Positions 20,580-27,987 of a stretch of 64,000 nucleotides of DNA are shown here, in pieces. The position numbers and the translations under genes were made by a program. Every line of letters begins with the position of its first letter. Within the stretch, counting starts at the first letter, position 1. The notes beneath the pieces are model-generated. The model saw only the letters and a list, made by a program, of their open reading frames with translations. It ran no database searches and was not told where the DNA came from. This stretch comes from Ignavibacteriales bacterium (GTDB lineage: Bacteria; Bacteroidota; Ignavibacteria; Ignavibacteriales; Melioribacteraceae): NCBI GenBank assembly GCA_021740915.1, contig JAIOYW010000002.1, forward strand, positions 186,001 to 250,000, in the 5' to 3' direction.

Positions 20580-21404
20580 TTAATTACTCAGGCTCCAGGT
20601 GGAAGTTGTGCTGCAGTGACCACTGCCTGTGGTTTGCTGCCAAAATGTTAATCCGGTTTCTTTCTGATAACGATATATAAAAACAAAGCCGCTGCCTGAT
20701 TCATGCTGAATTTCATCCGGATAATCCTTCGTATAAAATCTTGGCAGCAGTATCCCGGGCGTAAAACCCGGATGATTAATCAAAATATTATGATTTTTAT
20801 CTTCGACTATAATAAATTCATCGGAGATATTAACCTGGCTTGTATCCGGGGTGACAGGACCTCTTGCATCAATTTTTATCCCAATTAAATTTCTAAGGCA
20901 CTTATAAATAATTGAGTCATTAGAGGCTTCAACTAAATCAATTATTTCCCAATATTCGGTTCCATCTATATATACGTTGTCACCGCTGCAGATTTCCCTG
21001 AGTTTATATGTATATGTCCAGTGATTACCAATATTTAACGGGAAATAATCATAGAGTATAGGCTGCAAATTGAGAGTGATGGAAGTGCCGGATTTAATAT
21101 CTAAAACTGAATCTATGGGTTTAAATCCTTCACTATTGATAATTAAATGGAATGTGCCCTGTTCTTCGATCAAAAATTCAAAAAAGCCCTGATCATCTGT
21201 TGTATCGTAATAGGTGATTTCTCAGGCAAGCATTATCTCTATAGAATCCGGCAAAGAAGTTAAATCACCGGAAATAATCTGCCCGGTTACTCTTATTCTT
21301 TTATCCGGAGTAATATTCTCCGGTTCATTTGAATTTTCCTTACAGCCAAAGCAAAATAGTAATATAGAAACGAGTAAATTTAAATATGATAATGTACTTT
21401 TCAT
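20580..21404 (-). pseudogene. Lipoprotein with carboxypeptidase-regulatory-like domain, broken by an in-frame TGA
   Basis: The start MKSTLSYLNLLVSILL at 21404 leads to a lipobox cysteine ('FCFGC') and a beta-sandwich regulatory-like domain ('RVTGQIISGDLTSLPDSIEI'). At 21224-21222 a TGA interrupts the frame. Directly after it the same frame continues with 'EITYYDTTDDQGFFEFLIEE', the expected second half of that domain, and then about 190 more residues to the stop at 20580. No insertion or deletion is needed: a single base change (for example GGA to TGA) would explain it. The rest ('YFPLNIGNHWTYTYKL') resembles the 'LxxGNxWxY' secreted proteins of Bacteroidota. It is either a recent nonsense mutation, an assembly error or a programmed event; mutation is the simplest. 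Confidence 0.75.
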
Positions 21405-21563
21405 CTGAAGCGTTAAAGTTTTATTTATCAAATTACTCAAAAACTGCACCAAACCTGAATGAATGCATCCGGCTGATTTGCGGTTGAGACTGTAATTTTG
21501 CAGGTTGTTACTTTTTCGCAAAATTTGATTCAGGAATTTTCCAATTCAATATTAAGCATACCA

Positions 21564-22895
21564 TTATAGACTTAATGGAAAATTATTTAATATTGAATTA
21601 TCCTTTATTGACTGTTCTCTTTGTTCCCTTATGTATTTTGATTCTCTATATTCTCTAGCTTCGACAGTTGTAATAAAATCTGCATCCGGAAATTCGTTAT
21701 TAACCTCTTCTTCAATTTCTTTCAACTCCACATTAAAAAATTCTCTTCTTGTGTTTACTAAGTTTAACCTCCTTTCATTAAATCTCTTGTGTAATGCATT
21801 CTCTAGGGAAGGTGCATCCTTTGAATAAATCATCGCGTGTACATCAAATTTAAATGGAACAGAAGCATCACCAAGTTCATGAACTCTCTCCATTGGGTCA
21901 AGGCGTCGTGTCATACCAATTTTAAAAACTTTATCACCAAAAGAACCAATATTTGAGATAATATATACATGACCTGATTTTGTAAATTCTGCCATAGATT
22001 TTGCTCGTTCATTTTTTTCTTTAGCTTCGTTCAATTCCTGCTCTAAACTTATTATATCATGTCTTAAGCGTTCCAATTTTAATCCGACTGCTTTTTCGGC
22101 TTCCTCCTTTGCCTTGTCAAGTAAATCTTGATACCTTTGTTCCTCTTTTTCTGCGGCTTCAACTTCTTCAAGTAGTTTTGCTTCCTCTCTCATTTGTCTT
22201 CTCAGTTCTGCTTGTTCTTCCTTCTCTAGTTGTTTCTTTTCACGATATTCATGGGTTAATCTTAACTCCTCAAGTTTCAATTTTAAATAATTATCATCAA
22301 TTATTATATTATTTGATTTATTCATTTTATTAATTGCTTCATGAGCTTTAATTAATCTCGCCTCAAACATTAAAATATTATTCCAGCGAACATTTGAAAT
22401 AAGAGCATCGCATTCGTTATTAAATGCCCTTGATGTTAATCGAATATTTCTATTCGTCATCGTTTGGCCTTTGGATTTACTCCCATCAACGGACCAATCT
22501 GTATTACAAAATATGGAAGTTTTATTCAATACCATTTCCTTTTGTCGTTGTTTACAGTCATTAATTGCAGTTTTAAACCTTTCCGAGGTATCATAATCAA
22601 AATGAGGCTTATAAAAACCCAAATCAATTAATTCTTTCTCTTCATCATATAGTGAAACATGTCTAATCAATTCATCAAATATTAGTCTTTTTTCTTTATA
22701 ACTAGATCGGAGTGCTTCAAAATCTTGAATTAATTCGTTTTTAGCATCTGTTAATTTTTGTAATTCATTTTCAATGTCAATTAACGGCATATATCTTTTT
22801 CTTAAAAAGAAATATTTAATTATTAAAACAATGAATAATAAAAGAATTATCAGTATTGTTATAGTTAGGGCAATTATTTCATCCTGATTTTCCAT
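21564..22895 (-). CDS. Membrane-anchored DUF4041 / GIY-YIG nuclease, SNIPE-like anti-phage protein
   Basis: A 443-residue protein with, in order: one strongly hydrophobic helix (about 8-31); a short coiled coil (40-80); a DUF4041 domain (about 92-215, with 'FYKPHFDYDTSERFKTAI', 'CNTDWSVDGSK' and 'RAFNNECDALISNVRWNN'); a long charged coiled coil (215-305); and a T5orf172-type GIY-YIG nuclease domain (about 308-395, 'GHVYIISN', 'FKIGMTRR', 'ENALHKRF'). This order is that of SNIPE, a membrane-bound nuclease reported to cut phage DNA during entry. The gene sits beside integron-like cassettes and an AbiE pair, as expected in a defence region. Its base use is AT-rich like the chromosome. Phage-derived DUF4041 proteins are the alternative. 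Confidence 0.82.
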   Translation of the reverse strand: MENQDEIIALTITILIILLLFIVLIIKYFFLRKRYMPLIDIENELQKLTDAKNELIQDFEALRSSYKEKRLIFDELIRHVSLYDEEKELIDLGFYKPHFDYDTSERFKTAINDCKQRQKEMVLNKTSIFCNTDWSVDGSKSKGQTMTNRNIRLTSRAFNNECDALISNVRWNNILMFEARLIKAHEAINKMNKSNNIIIDDNYLKLKLEELRLTHEYREKKQLEKEEQAELRRQMREEAKLLEEVEAAEKEEQRYQDLLDKAKEEAEKAVGLKLERLRHDIISLEQELNEAKEKNERAKSMAEFTKSGHVYIISNIGSFGDKVFKIGMTRRLDPMERVHELGDASVPFKFDVHAMIYSKDAPSLENALHKRFNERRLNLVNTRREFFNVELKEIEEEVNNEFPDADFITTVEAREYRESKYIREQREQSIKDNSILNNFPLSL

Positions 22896-22983
22896 AAGGC
22901 ACCAATACTCCCACTTTTTTATACTTTCAAAAAGTACTTTTAACGAAACTGCGCGGCGTATGACTGATGATTATTATTTGAAG

Positions 22984-23257
22984 TCAATTATTATCGCTAT
23001 TTTCTCCTGCCATGTCCACGAGTTTTTCAAACCATTTCCATAATTGATCAGCACTTGCCTCTCGTGGCGAGCGCATGTCTTCAATAAATTTCGCAGAAAT
23101 GAATTGAATTAAATCCGCTTCCCAAATGCGTCATGGGTGATTTACATACAAGAATCATCGAAATTAATATCCATGCAATAATGATTAGAATGAAGGAAGT
23201 CCAAGTATTGAGCAGTTCTTGCTCATCTTTTGTGGCAATCATTTCAAACTTTAGCAT
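22984..23257 (-). pseudogene. Small cassette gene, apparently frameshifted (one membrane helix plus a helical tail)
   Basis: The ATG at 23257 is 9 bases after the attC core, as in a gene cassette. It gives 58 residues with one membrane helix (about 21-38, 'SFILIIIAWILISMILV') and ends at 23081. Another frame on the same strand then reads convincingly as protein ('WEADLIQFISAKFIEDM', 'REASADQLWKWFEKLVDMAG') and stops at 22984. Joining the two near 23115-23130 needs one skipped base and gives a protein of about 91 residues. It is probably a frameshifted or miscalled cassette gene; two separate small ORFs are possible. I do not recognise the family. Between 22984 and 22896, a fragment with CGCCGCGCAG next to GTTAAAA could be a decayed attC end. 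Confidence 0.45.
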
Positions 23258-23266
23258 TACAATACC

Positions 23267-23395
23267 GTTTAACGGCTGGCGTTACCTGCGTGTGGGCGGG
23301 CGTGGATTCTGCTTGGGAGCAGGAAAAACTCGAAGCCAGAAAAATGCTTGAAAATGCCGCAGAAGCCCACACGTCAAGTGTACGCTTTGTTAGCC
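23267..23395 (-). repeat. attC-like recombination site (long form) of an integron cassette
   Basis: On the minus strand the site begins with GGCTAAC (23395-23389, inverse core) and ends with GTTAAAC (23273-23267, core, matching GTTRRRY). Near the ends are the complementary arms GTGTGGGC and GCCCACAC, with imperfect continuation outward, and a 129-bp total length like the long attC sites of Vibrio-type arrays. It lies 12 bases after the DUF2971 gene and 9 bases before the next ATG, the exact layout of a cassette array. Confidence 0.75.
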
Positions 23396-23407
23396 CTTCT
23401 TTTGTTG

Positions 23408-24364
23408 TCAAAAGAAAGGTTCTTGAATTAATTCTGACGGACTTACTTTTACCTTTATTCCATACTTTTCATTAACATCATTAACGAGTTGTGTAAACCA
23501 ACTTGGCGCGCTTGGGGAAACAAAAACTTCTTCGATAAGAATTGATAAACCACAAGGAATAATCTTTCCTTTATCTGGATAACGCATGTCTATTAATATT
23601 GCTCTGACTTCCTTCTCATGCTCAAAGGACTTTCTTTTATGCCAAAATGCGTCATTTACACCTGCATAACTCTTTTGGAAATCAATGTACTTTACTCTGC
23701 CAATGTTGATAGATGGATTGCGTCCGAGCGCGTGGTATAGACTGTTATATGAAGTTCTTACTGCGATTGCATTTTCAAGAAAACTTGAATACAGTCTCCA
23801 CATTGCTTCCGACTCGTGTTCATTTTCATGCCAACAACTTATGAAAGTTCTTTTTTTGCCAATCTCGCCGCCGTGTTCTAAATCTCCGAGTAGGCGTTTA
23901 GCCTGTTTTTCTACTTCTTCATCGGAATACTTAAATTCATGATCTTCGCGCAGATTCTTAATCCCTTCCCGAAAGAAATTTAAATAATACTCATCCCACT
24001 TGTCTTTATTTTTCTTTAAGCCTTTTGCTCCTTCAAATGTATCTTGAAAACAATCGGCGCGAGCAAAGTATAAGCCTTTGGTTGAAAGCATACTTACATA
24101 TTTTGTAAAATCTGTGTATCGCCAAAGTTTGCTTTCAGCAGGTGGGATTTCATAGGGTCGTGGCATGAAAACATGCCTTACAGCAGTCTCTTTAAGTTTA
24201 TTTGAGCATTTATCGCAGACGTATAAGGGTTTGTCGTCAATATCGTATCCCAAGTGAGAAGTATCACCTTCTTGAAATTTATAACCACATGAAACACATT
24301 CATCGTGGTGTTCAAACGCCAATAGTCTAAGTTCTTCGGTGAGTCTATTCCTCATTTTTTGCAT
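23408..24364 (-). CDS. DUF2971 family protein with N-terminal zinc ribbon (integron cassette gene)
   Basis: A 318-residue protein. The N-terminus has two CxxC pairs ('CVSCGYKF' and 'CDKCSNKL', residues about 23-55), likely a zinc ribbon. The rest fits DUF2971, a family of unknown function often found in defence islands and on mobile DNA: 'LWRYTDFTKYVSMLSTKGLYF', 'FISCWHENEHESEAMWRLY' and 'HEKEVRAILIDMRYP'. It is bracketed by two attC-like sites, with its ATG 15 bases after one core and its stop 12 bases before the next, so it is one complete cassette read on the minus strand. The function is unknown; a role in stress or phage response is only inferred from context. Confidence 0.8.
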   Translation of the reverse strand: MQKMRNRLTEELRLLAFEHHDECVSCGYKFQEGDTSHLGYDIDDKPLYVCDKCSNKLKETAVRHVFMPRPYEIPPAESKLWRYTDFTKYVSMLSTKGLYFARADCFQDTFEGAKGLKKNKDKWDEYYLNFFREGIKNLREDHEFKYSDEEVEKQAKRLLGDLEHGGEIGKKRTFISCWHENEHESEAMWRLYSSFLENAIAVRTSYNSLYHALGRNPSINIGRVKYIDFQKSYAGVNDAFWHKRKSFEHEKEVRAILIDMRYPDKGKIIPCGLSILIEEVFVSPSAPSWFTQLVNDVNEKYGIKVKVSPSELIQEPFF

Positions 24365-24379
24365 AGTTTATCTTTGAAG

Positions 24380-24454
24380 GGCTAACGCTCCGCATAACCG
24401 GCTGGCAATGGAGCGCAGCGGAATTGCCAGTCCGAGTTGATGCGGTTGTTAGGT
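24380..24454 (-). repeat. attC recombination site of an integron cassette
   Basis: A 75-bp site read on the minus strand. ACCTAAC (24454-24448) is the inverse core, and GTTAGCC (24386-24380) is the core. Between them lie L-type arms CGGACTGGCAAT and ATTGCCAGCCGG, nearly perfect complements around a GC-rich loop, and outer arms containing CCGCAT and ATGCGG. This is a textbook attC hairpin. The stop of the 353-aa gene overlaps its start and the DUF2971 gene starts 15 bases after it. Confidence 0.85.
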
Positions 24455-25515
24455 CATAGGTTTCTATTATATATTCCAATCACCCGCTCCGTTCTATCTT
24501 CATAGGTCCATGTTTTTTTAATGAAAGTGTAACCGGCAAAAGGACAATCCACAGAAATTGATCGCCCGCCGTAGCTGCCAATCAGAAGAAACTCTGGCAA
24601 CTCTGCTCCGTGTGAGATTGCCTCCCAAAGAGGTGCGTCAGGATCATTGAAGTTTGTCCAATTATCTCCGCATGCATGTCCTGGTTGAATTATCGCCAAG
24701 ATCTTCGGGGTCATCTCGTTTCGACTATAAAGACCTTGGAAAGATGATAGGGCTTCTCCACCCAAGAACAAGAAACTGAACAACCGAGGACCGACTCTTT
24801 CATCTCTCTTTTCTCTACGTTGCCATATCGACCAATGACCGAAAGGGAGACAACGACTCTGTGCTTCCATCAGACGTTGCCGACCATCAAAACCGGGGTT
24901 GTCAAACCTCCGTGGAGGCTGTGGAATCCAGTCATCTGGTACGATTTCATGCCTCTCGACATTCCGACTGAGGATCGGTCTGTAGGGGCTAAAGCCAGGG
25001 AAAAGCATGGTTCGGTTGAAGTCATCGCGGCTGGTGCCATAATCGACATATACGAATGAATGAACGCACCCGTTGGCGAGGAGCACCGGAGAGCTGTCCA
25101 GCCCGGAAGAGGGATAAAAGCAACTGTCCGACAAAACATCTTTGAGTGGAATTAAGGGTGGGAGGGTAGTGGCACTGGCTAAACGTACCAACCATTCCGG
25201 AATCGGTATGTGGGGGAAGGTTGTAGCATACGGATGTGGGCGGGGAAGCTTCTCGCATTTCCCCTCCATATGCTTTGCCAACCTGGACGAACAAATAAGA
25301 TTGCCGCAGAGCGGACACAGTTTAAGAGCCCCCTTCTTGACGCGTTCCTCTATGATGGCTCGCTGGCACTCAGCCCGTTTCTTCGCTTCACGTTCGGCTG
25401 CGCACTTACCGCTCCGACAATATCCACCTGTTGCGTCTGCCGTTCGCACCAAAATTGCCGTTCCACAAGCTCGGCAAGTTGTTTTAGACTCCTCAGTCAT
25501 AATGCTCGTCCCCAT
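24454..25515 (-). CDS. Hypothetical protein with two zinc-binding-like N-terminal motifs (integron cassette gene)
   Basis: A 353-residue protein that I do not recognise. The N-terminal 90 residues carry 'CRACGTAI...CRSGKC' and 'CPLCGNLI...HMEGKC', likely two zinc sites, the second resembling a C2HC finger. The remainder is soluble, aromatic-rich and without a known motif; no signal peptide or membrane segment is seen. Base composition is visibly GC-richer than neighbouring genes, which fits recent arrival. The ATG at 25515 directly follows a GTTAGGT core, as cassette genes do; a second in-frame ATG at 25500 is also possible. The stop overlaps the attC site downstream. Confidence 0.65.
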   Translation of the reverse strand: MGTSIMTEESKTTCRACGTAILVRTADATGGYCRSGKCAAEREAKKRAECQRAIIEERVKKGALKLCPLCGNLICSSRLAKHMEGKCEKLPRPHPYATTFPHIPIPEWLVRLASATTLPPLIPLKDVLSDSCFYPSSGLDSSPVLLANGCVHSFVYVDYGTSRDDFNRTMLFPGFSPYRPILSRNVERHEIVPDDWIPQPPRRFDNPGFDGRQRLMEAQSRCLPFGHWSIWQRREKRDERVGPRLFSFLFLGGEALSSFQGLYSRNEMTPKILAIIQPGHACGDNWTNFNDPDAPLWEAISHGAELPEFLLIGSYGGRSISVDCPFAGYTFIKKTWTYEDRTERVIGIYNRNL

Positions 25516-25600
25516 GACCTAACTAATAATTAAGCCGCAACAAACTGCTGCAACCAGGAATATTATCCTACAGACTACCGCAGGATAAAAAGCCGTTCTT
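25516..25600 (-). repeat. Cassette-array boundary: attC or attI core remnant
   Basis: On the minus strand GTTAGGT (25523-25517) sits immediately before the 353-aa cassette gene, as a recombination core should. To its right are GC-richer patches (GCCGCAACAAACTGCTGC and CTACCGCAGG), but I cannot pair them into a full attC, and no inverse core is evident. It could be a decayed attC or the old attI. No integrase gene lies to its right in the window. Confidence 0.4.
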
Positions 25601-26130
25601 ATTTTGTTATTTTTTTATTAACTTATTATAAAACATAATATTACAAACCTTTGAACTTTATTAATAATTTATGTTATCCTTCATTGGATTGCAGCCTAAC
25701 ATTCCTCAACCTCAATCCGGCTAAAGAACTTTTAATCCCTGATCTCAAATTTGTTAAATAAGTGTATATCATTTATTATACAAGTTCAATAATTCCAATC
25801 GCAGGCACGGTATAATTTTGAAATGTTTTGTTTTATTATTATTTATATCTGAAGCACAGAGATCCAATCCCGCACTTTGTCGGAAGGCGCTCAATTCATT
25901 GAGCGATAGTGTGAACTGACCTGATATTACTGAAGAAAAATCCTGCACAGAATGATCCCTCTTTTGTCAGTTTCAAATTAATAATTATCCGCCAAAAAAC
26001 AAAAATGAGACATGATGTACTTTAATATTTTTTAATAATATTATGTTAGTGAAAGTGTAAAATATTGGCGGGGTATTGCAGCTTAGCCGTGTGACTTATC
26101 ACACAAACTCCCGTGCTCTCCAGCCGAACC
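25524..26130. other. Gene-free AT-rich spacer with a short palindrome
   Basis: About 600 bases without a credible gene between the cassette array and the AbiE pair. It contains an 18-bp palindrome at 25888-25905 (CGCTCAAT-TC-ATTGAGCG) and copy A of the direct repeat that flanks the AbiE genes. No integrase or transposase remnant could be read in either strand. Confidence 0.5.
25984..26032 (+). repeat. Direct repeat copy A flanking the AbiE module
   Basis: Copy A of an imperfect direct repeat. It aligns with 28205-28250 at about 41 of 49 columns (five substitutions, three single-base gaps), sharing blocks such as GCCAAAAA, CATGAT and TACTT. The two copies bracket the two AbiE genes. Confidence 0.55.
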
Positions 26131-27213
26131 TTAAAGCGCTGATACTATGAGTTCTATTGTTTTGTACCAGTAGTAAAACGATGATTTATCCGGTTGCCGT
26201 TTTAATCTGTTCAGAAAATTCCAATCCGGGTCTTCAATAATCCAATCCTTAATGTCCTGTCCTTGGAAGTAGGTTATTGGAGTCAGGTCATCTGCCAGTA
26301 TTTTTGCAGCCAAATAGGCAATCCTGGCTGAGGCTGGGATAGCATCATCAATTCTAAAATTGCCTGATATTAAATATCCGGTGCCAAACGCAATAATACC
26401 TTTTTGAATTTGTGCAAACTTTTCTTTCTCCTCAGTGCTTCCTCTTTCTCTTTTTGTGATAACCAAACATGTGTCAATGATATCATGAAGAACACGATCA
26501 GGTGTTAAATCCGGACGTTTTTCTTTACGGTATTTAATTTCGTGTTCTGCAAAAACCCGAAAGCTTTCTGCAACAACTTCAACAGAAGAAATTTGTTCAA
26601 ACAGCTTACTTAAATCGTAAAGTTGTTTACAAATCTCCATTGCGGTGGATTGCCCGCTCTTTTCGTAAGGAATACCTATTGTACTCGGAGCAAAAGCGGT
26701 AAGTTTATCACCGGTAATAGCATCAATAGTTGGGACAGTAACTTTTACTTCTTCATCTGTCTCAATCCAATTTGCCTCTATTATTTTTTCTGTCGTTTCC
26801 GGATATTTAGAATCTTCATTAAGAACATCTAAAAGAACTGTTCCGGAATATGCACCTCTCAGCGAAGATTCATATGAAAATGTATAATGTGCCTTCGGAA
26901 CTCCTGGTTTATAACCTCTGTGTTCCTGCAATTCAAAACCGGTAAATCTTGATGTTTCAATAACTTTTTTCAAAATTGCTTCAAGCTCATCCCTCACAGT
27001 ATTTGATATAATATCAATATCAATTGAGAATCGATTTCCCTCGTCGAGCAGAAGTACCAGACTGGTACCACCTTTGAATGTGTACTTTAATCCGTTTTTC
27101 TGAAGTTGTTCTAATAAATGTAATGCATAAATCATTTTTTCCAGAATATTTATATCTATTCTCTTATGAGCAGGCTGTTTCCTGAATGTTGCAGCCATTC
27201 TTTCGTAAAGCAT
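26131..27213 (-). CDS. AbiEii-like nucleotidyltransferase toxin
   Basis: A 360-residue protein of the AbiEii/MenT nucleotidyltransferase group. The DNA-polymerase-beta-like motif appears as 'TFKGGTSLVLL' followed by 'RFSIDIDII' (G-[GT]-S and D-x-D), with a third motif 'ITGDKLTAFAP'. AbiEii toxins add nucleotides to target RNA (tRNA in characterised MenT relatives) and stop growth, giving abortive phage resistance. It starts 6 bases after the antitoxin stop, the usual order of type IV AbiE systems. All nucleotidyltransferase motifs look intact. The gene is AT-rich like the chromosome, so transfer, if any, was from a similar background or old. Confidence 0.85.
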   Translation of the reverse strand: MLYERMAATFRKQPAHKRIDINILEKMIYALHLLEQLQKNGLKYTFKGGTSLVLLLDEGNRFSIDIDIISNTVRDELEAILKKVIETSRFTGFELQEHRGYKPGVPKAHYTFSYESSLRGAYSGTVLLDVLNEDSKYPETTEKIIEANWIETDEEVKVTVPTIDAITGDKLTAFAPSTIGIPYEKSGQSTAMEICKQLYDLSKLFEQISSVEVVAESFRVFAEHEIKYRKEKRPDLTPDRVLHDIIDTCLVITKRERGSTEEKEKFAQIQKGIIAFGTGYLISGNFRIDDAIPASARIAYLAAKILADDLTPITYFQGQDIKDWIIEDPDWNFLNRLKRQPDKSSFYYWYKTIELIVSAL

Positions 27214-27219
27214 TTCTCC

Positions 27220-27987
27220 TTAAACATCCATAATCTCCTTAACCAGGTATTGCATATTCTTAATCAGAAACACTTTGATATCATTCCCCCTTTCCCGTCT
27301 TTTTGCATAACTGAAAAGTTTTGTATAATTAATATTATACTTCGTTAAGGCATTTATATAAATGTGAACCAGTTCAGACCCTCGGGAGTAATAAAATAGT
27401 TTGTCTTCAGTAAAAATGTCAACCAATATCTTTTCAAGAAAAGGTATTTGGAATTTTAATTTCTTTTCCGTTCGTTGTCTTACCGGGGAGCGGGTTATTA
27501 ACTTTTTAATTACAATAGGCTGTGGGCTTTCTGCCACATAAAATTTTATTGTTTTTTCATCCGGAGTAAGGAAAATATTACCCTTGTAAATTTCTTGAAG
27601 TTCATAGAAAAAGGAATCTAAAAAATCCTTTTCAACCTCGATAATAATTATTTTATTACCTGACTGATGTTGTGAAAACTCATTCAGCCAGATTGTTTCC
27701 CATAGGCAGTATTTCACATCGTTGAATTTATCATTTATTTTTCTGGCAAGTTTTAATAATTCCAGAGAAGGTTCAGGTTTGTATTTTGGCTTATATGAAA
27801 TTGTGTATAAACCCCGCATTAAAGGTTTTATTATATTTTTATTTTTCAAATCATAGATTCTCCAGGCAAAAGTCCCTTCTTTCAGCTCCGGCTCAGAGTA
27901 TTTAAAGAAATCATAAAGCTCATTTCTGGAGAATGATTTTCTGTCTTTAAATTCTTCAATTAATCTGTTTTCTATAATTCCCGGCAT
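27220..27987 (-). CDS. AbiEi-like antitoxin / transcriptional autoregulator (DUF6577-type)
   Basis: A 255-residue protein. The N-terminal 75 residues form a winged helix ('FSRNELYDFFKY', 'FAWRIYDLKNKNIIKPLMRGLYTI'), as in AbiEi, where it binds the operon's own promoter. The C-terminal part ('CLWETIWLNEF' onwards) is the antitoxin-like domain. It is the first gene of the pair and ends 6 bases before the toxin. A bulged inverted repeat lies 55 bases upstream of the start and may be its operator. DUF6577 is my best family assignment and was not checked by search. Confidence 0.7.
   Translation of the reverse strand: MPGIIENRLIEEFKDRKSFSRNELYDFFKYSEPELKEGTFAWRIYDLKNKNIIKPLMRGLYTISYKPKYKPEPSLELLKLARKINDKFNDVKYCLWETIWLNEFSQHQSGNKIIIIEVEKDFLDSFFYELQEIYKGNIFLTPDEKTIKFYVAESPQPIVIKKLITRSPVRQRTEKKLKFQIPFLEKILVDIFTEDKLFYYSRGSELVHIYINALTKYNINYTKLFSYAKRRERGNDIKVFLIKNMQYLVKEIMDV

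Follow-up and report, generated by a model that had tools for sequence, protein, structure and literature searches.

The cassettes considered here lie on the minus strand of a 64,000-nucleotide stretch of contig JAIOYW010000002.1 (positions 186,001 to 250,000; assembly GCA_021740915.1) of a bacterium of the order Ignavibacteriales; this whole stretch is the window, and positions are given in its coordinates. They adjoin the remains of an integron platform, in which most of the integrase gene (intI) is missing and the insertion site (attI) is kept. The genome of the window, a 4.35-Mb draft, is called G000; other G numbers denote relatives and C numbers contigs. An earlier note, made from the letters of the window, had described two attC-like sites that separate single-gene cassettes, a third core adjoining the first cassette gene and no integrase gene. 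Both sites are present at those positions, and the third core is real, at 25523. The features of the locus are as follows.

24386..25522, minus strand: gene cassette 1, with the gene of a 353-residue Cys-rich protein (open reading frame, ORF, 24454-25515) and attC site A; recognised by 10-base complementarity of its ends and by its G+C content.
23273..24385, minus strand: gene cassette 2, with the gene of a 318-residue DUF2971-type protein (ORF 23408-24364; PADLOC candidate PDC-S31) and attC site B; ends complementary over 11 bases.
22945..23272, minus strand: start of a third cassette (ORF 23081-23257, 58 residues), with its R' core at 23273; lower border uncertain.
24380..24454, minus strand: attC site A, 75 bp, of a cosmopolitan type; recognised by its fold, a hairpin 25-mer and complementary cores.
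23267..23395, minus strand: attC site B, 129 bp; R'' and R' boxes, 9-bp arms CGTGTGGGC/GCCCACACG, and fold.
25519..25604, minus strand: attI-like site with its G/TT core at 25523/25522; the same end, TTAATTAATAGTTA or close to it, stands after intact intI in relatives.
25713..25775, minus strand: remnant of the 3' end of intI (match of profile model R2 at C31:211713-211775, E 7.9e-11, 44.2 bits; nhmmer and translation).
25845..26030, minus strand: upstream part of the platform, a conserved promoter/leader region with ribosome site and GTG-started leader ORF (profile model R1).

Both sites have R'' and R' boxes with AAC and GTT cores and complementary arms, as expected of sites that bound cassettes, and read ACCTAAC...GTTAGCC (site A) and GGCTAAC...GTTAAAC (site B) on the minus strand. 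When 24375-24460 was folded as DNA and compared with dinucleotide shuffles, z was -4.2 for the minus strand and -5.2 for the plus strand, which is the bottom strand when an attC is read in the direction of its genes; the corresponding values for 23262-23400 were -2.4 and -2.1. The bottom-strand fold that had been proposed as a check was therefore better than shuffles at both sites, strongly so for site A and moderately for site B. An Rfam search of 21000-27500 gave one irrelevant weak match and nothing relevant. The moderate values of site B, and the fact that a simple stem-pairing scan returned comparable scores from shuffled sequence and was dropped as an attC detector, would be the grounds for regarding the sites as unrelated inverted repeats brought together by chance. 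Since the scan was unspecific, end complementarity and arm profiles were used instead. Once a cassette has been excised, its first bases (GTTRRRY...) have to be complementary to its own R'' box, about 1 kb away, and this makes end complementarity a better test than the fold. The ends of cassette 1 (25523 to 24448) pair over 10 bases and those of cassette 2 (24386 to 23389) over 11, and the cassettes are genuine by this test: a pairing of 10 bases was reached by four of the 6086 GTTR/YAAC pairs present on the window's minus strand at distances of 300-2500 bp, and two of these four are the cassettes themselves. Chance is contradicted by this result, by the exact cosmopolitan hairpin of site A and by the recurrence of attI and cassettes elsewhere in the genome, and is hardly credible as an explanation.

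At least 117 stretches of publicly available prokaryote genomes, from many phyla, contain the 25-mer of the site A hairpin exactly, and all counts on this hairpin refer to the matches listed, whose titles include Deltaproteobacteria, Nitrospirae, Planctomycetia, Cyanobacteria and Chlorobiaceae. Complementary cores frame the hairpin in 48 of the 114 contexts with enough flank, compared with 26 of 580 random places. Nine of the loci have an IntI match of more than 200 residues, and no homologue of either cassette protein was found in them. Judged by these matches, site A is a widely shared, foreign type of attC.

A BLAST search with 22000-27500 revealed that 25518-26037, a segment ending at the first cassette, recurs elsewhere in G000. 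The middle of this repeat matches the 3' end of the intact intI genes of relatives (nhmmer) and is readable as GAGIKSPLDG-stop and similar; its 5' part matches DNA upstream of the intact intI in G035; and the sequence that follows intact intI genes in relatives ends as the repeat does. By homology, the repeat thus consists of an upstream region, the tail of intI and attI, and the platform so defined covers 25518-26045 in the window. In the window the remnant reads ...SGIKSSLAG, against GAGVKSPLDG in intact IntI, so that about the last 20 codons remain where a complete integron would have a full intI beside attI. The attI itself has its G/TT core at the first cassette and a homologous site after intact intI in relatives.

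The absence of an integrase from the window was confirmed, and genome-wide searches of G000 with an IntI profile and with the IntI protein of a relative also found none. The best match (85 bits) was a 285-residue XerC/D-like frame, matched in two parts that do not cover profile positions 191-253, the place of the IntI-specific segment. This lone recombinase (G000:C22:97641-98465) is the closest protein to IntI in the genome. Five PF00589 matches in G000 were considered as IntI and rejected as XerC/D-like or other tyrosine recombinases with no continuous IntI match.

The description of the locus in the earlier note as CALIN-like (a cluster of attC sites lacking an integrase) therefore holds in that there are at least two attC sites and that an integrase was found neither nearby nor in the genome; it is not a bare attC cluster, because attI and the intI tail adjoin the cassettes. 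In the sense of IntegronFinder usage the locus resembles a CALIN in having attC-bounded cassettes and no neighbouring integrase; it differs in the persistence of attI and intI tail and in the recurrence of the platform at least nine times in one genome. Insertion by a foreign integrase at secondary sites of the attG type is documented (PMC12444791), and copies of the repeat's upstream part are also present where there is no integron, so that cassettes might have entered at secondary sites that happen to adjoin a repeated regulatory sequence. This explanation is contradicted by the junction, which is homologous to the attI after the intact intI of relatives and is preceded by an intI tail, and we consider it very improbable.

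The platform is multiplied in G000. The upstream part has 14 copies at E<=1.1e-13 and three weaker ones at E<=0.1 (R1), and the intI tail has nine (R2, strict filters), none of them near a long IntI; two further copies (C1 and one of C17) have a tail that is degenerate as judged by eye. The copies on C23, C2, C18 and C35 terminate in TTAATTAATAGTTA (C2 with one base different) and then diverge into different genes, and other copies in the genome end in the same sequence or one close to it. A comparison of the five longest copies gave the highest identity, about 86%, for the attI end and an upstream hairpin, and the lowest, 61%, for the middle. Four copies lie on one strand of the 33.7-kb contig C17 (L098, L126), among genes and attC arms, and this contig begins inside the last of them. 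In a tree of 28 intI tails, from which five of 33 rows had been left out for want of a core, the nine tails of G000 fell into two groups found in this genome only (2 changes, against a mean of 7.8 in shuffles; 0/500 as low), as would be expected if platforms had multiplied in this lineage. Each group has one joined layout of upstream part, short intI tail and attI. Miniature inverted-repeat transposable element (MITE)-like elements are non-autonomous deletion derivatives of mobile elements. The platforms are like them in that the enzyme gene is internally deleted and several copies with a common internal deletion are present per genome; they differ in that no fixed left end was found in the G000 platforms.

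The platforms also carry cassettes. End complementarity of at least 9 bases at the first cassette was found for six of eight G000 platforms and for six of eight platforms with intact intI (8 of 26 long-IntI loci tested), compared with 64 of 858 random GTTA positions from the same loci, with true sites among them. Arms of the long attC sites of this lineage, scored with profiles, lie downstream of eight of the nine tail-bearing platforms of G000, the lone exception being the platform of the window, which has sites A and B. Shuffled sequences gave at most 5.9 bits, and as the profiles were built partly from loci that were scanned later, the real test is the contrast with shuffles only. In the stretches fetched, such arms occur on C1, C2, C6, C15, C17, C18, C23 and C35, and paired arms span about 180-242 bp; automatic matching of 5' to 3' arms succeeded for 7 of 38, probably because of extrahelical bases. 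Of ten proteins from platform loci that were scanned, one belonged to no family; among those that could be named were an Mrr endonuclease, two radical-SAM enzymes, a choloylglycine-hydrolase-type enzyme, a beta-lactamase-fold protein and two secreted proteins with Por tails. Behind the platform on C2 lies a cassette of about 3.3 kb (L023:4790-8075) with a short His/Gly/Ser-rich ORF (by eye), a 90-residue ORF and the genes of two radical-SAM proteins, and this content suggests an entire peptide-modification cluster that was mobilised as one cassette.

The survey of the order covered 58 genomes, G000 counted in. The long attC has BLAST matches at E<=0.1 in 44 of them, and its 3'-arm pattern (<=1 mismatch) occurs in 36, compared with none for the reversed control. 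IntI matches of at least 800 nt were found at 26 loci in 23/58 genomes, with 0-2 loci per relative. Tails of intI away from a long IntI are present in 28/58, an upper bound for true deletions because some lie at contig ends (G027 C42, C52; G047 C24; G046 C18, C9). Of 12 such tail loci that were fetched, picked partly for nearby attC matches, 10 have lineage attC arms downstream that point the same way. The two deleted copies in G034 share a junction and have open frames; G006 also has two copies with a common junction, of which one is open, and the frames of G049 and G003 are likewise open across the deletion; in these loci (L260 and L261 in G034, L266 in G006, L269 in G049, L270 in G003) the N-terminal start of intI is joined in frame to its C-terminal end. 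The G034 copies resemble the intact platform of G008, which belongs to a different family (identity 94% over 251 bases and 86% over 255). The earlier note had named conservation of the same arrangement in all relatives as a finding that would speak against it; such conservation was not seen, as 22000-27500 gave only short partial BLAST matches, in 7 of 37 other genomes.

The single-contig genome G036 has an intact integron whose intI tail and attI occur a second time (98.8% over 256 bp; 137 kb vs 3.15 Mb on the contig), the second copy running to the attI core and continuing into a different first cassette. A possible cryptic core was noticed at the left end of this copy. Its first cassette (9-base end match) closes in an attC of about 430 bp, which starts at the R'' box and shares 85-95% identity with four attC sites in the intact array. 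The same kind of attC in both arrays would be as expected if one integrase served both, and the second copy may have been duplicated by other means. This second kind of attC (L090, L259) begins YAACCTCTTTAATAA, with four examples in the intact array and a fifth following the deleted platform, and it escapes the lineage arm profiles.

The deletion of intI, the attI sites, the cassettes and the multiplicity of the platforms are thus features of the G000 genome. We explain them, with a probability of roughly 0.7, by intI-deleted platforms that were dispersed in the genome and whose attI sites were supplied with cassettes by an integrase that acted in trans. The sequence of events would be that a large internal deletion removed intI from the platforms of one or two founders, leaving the upstream region, the last 20 or so codons and the full attI; that the deleted platforms then multiplied and dispersed; and that IntI in trans, from a former or unsequenced intI of the cell or from an incoming element, inserted cassettes at the platform attI sites. 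The attI of the window would have received the Cys-rich-protein cassette with its cosmopolitan attC and the DUF2971 cassette, and the cassettes would be expressed from the platform promoter. The trans action, the deletion before amplification and cassette insertion, the expression from the platform promoter and the way in which the platforms spread are inferred.

Ordinary decay could produce a similar picture if several complete integrons had been gained or duplicated, filled under their own intI and then deprived of it by independent deletions, with no action in trans. Pseudogenes of intI are common, affecting about a third of integrons (PMC2426708), relatives do hold long IntI loci, and the G000 tails make two groups rather than one. 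However, the single joined layout within each group and the same-junction pairs in G034 and G006 would require parallel identical deletions, and a single deletion that was then copied is the more likely course. We therefore regard decay of this kind as unlikely, if deserving of serious consideration.

Several observations weigh against dispersed platforms served in trans. Contig C17 begins inside a platform copy (C17:1-85), so that in this draft assembly an intact intI may sit in a gap. The two tail groups may have a single origin, with row C15b long-branched. Two of the eight G000 platforms, C35 and C17_3.9, have no end-complementary first cassette, and among deleted platforms of other genomes two of five reach 9 bases. 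The upstream part also precedes other genes with no intI remnant in the approximately 700 bases read (G000 C16, C11; G035 C149) and is therefore not integron-specific. Lastly, the promoter box is degraded in G000 platforms. The Bacteroidota form of the promoter consensus, TTTG-N-TANNTTTG, is exact in all four G035 copies and in G000 C16 (7 of 2000 random places); five of 11 G000 platforms have it with at most one mismatch, the window box being one mismatch away, and nine of 11 with at most two (65 and 291 of 2000 random places), and the remaining two are four mismatches off or have none. The promoter/leader region looks like a shared regulatory leader. At L128 (C16), L129 (C11) and L123 (G035 C149) the leader, with a TTG-, ATG- or GTG-started ORF, precedes lipoprotein- or hydrolase-like genes (by eye).

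The dispersed platforms have a right end fixed at the attI core and a left extent that varies between copies. A clean left end was sought and rejected: C18 and C35 have more upstream DNA in common, and C15b and C17 other upstream DNA. In C15b and C17_3.9 this common DNA is 260 bp long and starts exactly at an R'' box behind different genes, and its 5' arm scores as a lineage attC (19.5 and 22.6 bits). A whole attC at this position was rejected, as no 3' arm was detected even at a very permissive limit; with a 5' arm that scores and no 3' arm that does, these two copies suggest a platform in cassette position. The deleted platform could then itself be a non-autonomous mobile unit, moved like a cassette by IntI in trans, with an attC core at its left and its own attI at its right, although we think this improbable. 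Units of the form attC-gene-deltaattI have been reported to be recombined by IntI1 (PMC12901181). They are alike in being bounded by an attC and, at the opposite end, by an attI-type site, as may be so for C15b and C17_3.9; they differ in that the unit would here be a platform with promoter and intI tail, whose left attC is supported in the 5' arm only.

The first cassette stands out by its G+C content of about 49-53%, compared with 27-40% around it. Its gene, described before as unrecognised, has no Pfam family above cut-off and none in NCBIfam, PADLOC or PHROGs at E<=0.1; weak matches exist in three of the 295 further genomes searched from the phylum, and none was found on the plasmids searched. 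The assignment of the second gene to DUF2971 agrees with the annotation of its relatives on plasmids, but Pfam (E<=1) and NCBIfam (E<=0.1) give the protein no name; it matches PADLOC candidate PDC-S31. For the third cassette, earlier described as decayed, no R'' that pairs with the start at 23273 over more than 6 bases was found within 3 kb; this cassette is therefore truncated or decayed, and its 58-residue ORF matched no family. Defence genes stand on both sides of the cassettes, PD-Lambda-1 (PADLOC 2.4e-171) downstream at 21564-22895 and AbiEii and AbiEi (3.6e-122, 2e-85) upstream at 26131-27987. A search for a partner of the core that precedes the PD-Lambda-1 gene found none. By gene content, these surroundings and the PDC-S31 match point to a defence island; that the cassettes themselves serve in defence is a guess. 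A lipoprotein-like gene broken by an in-frame stop (20580-21521, minus strand) resembles by eye the gene after the leader at L128.

Among the open-licence papers that the literature searches listed, no title or abstract opening describes multi-copy intI-deleted platforms. Chromosomal integrons of Ignavibacteriae are mentioned (PMC9024848); in the relatives of G000 intI is transcribed towards attI and the attC sites are long, and the G000 platforms are without integrase. The orientation is the same in Treponema (PMC3607928). Pseudo-integrons and intI pseudogenes resemble the platforms as integrons with a dead or missing integrase; duplication within the genome has been proposed for some, and Treponema phagedenis holds a remnant. 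They differ in being defined by stops, frameshifts, size changes and remnants, and multiplied, internally deleted platforms with different cassettes are not described in the available parts of these articles (PMC2426708; PMC3607928). CALIN are said to be mobilisable in trans (PMC12444791), and natural platform sites make such action testable.

In the usual picture an integron has one integrase, one attI and one array, of which the first cassettes alone are well expressed. A genome with at least nine attI-bearing, integrase-less platforms has a different layout, with many first positions. If the platform itself is mobile, each new location would gain a promoter and a fresh attI from it, giving many docking sites per cell with few or no resident integrases, and the in-frame deleted intI genes of relatives would indicate that some function maintains the short products or their translation. 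As attI sites outside class 1 are poorly described and not detected (PMC9024848), tools that search for attC only would miss such platforms. Deleted platforms provide a specific explanation of how some of the cassette clusters without integrase that are at present classed as CALIN could have arisen, and in the window the platform would explain how foreign genes came to lie between defence genes.

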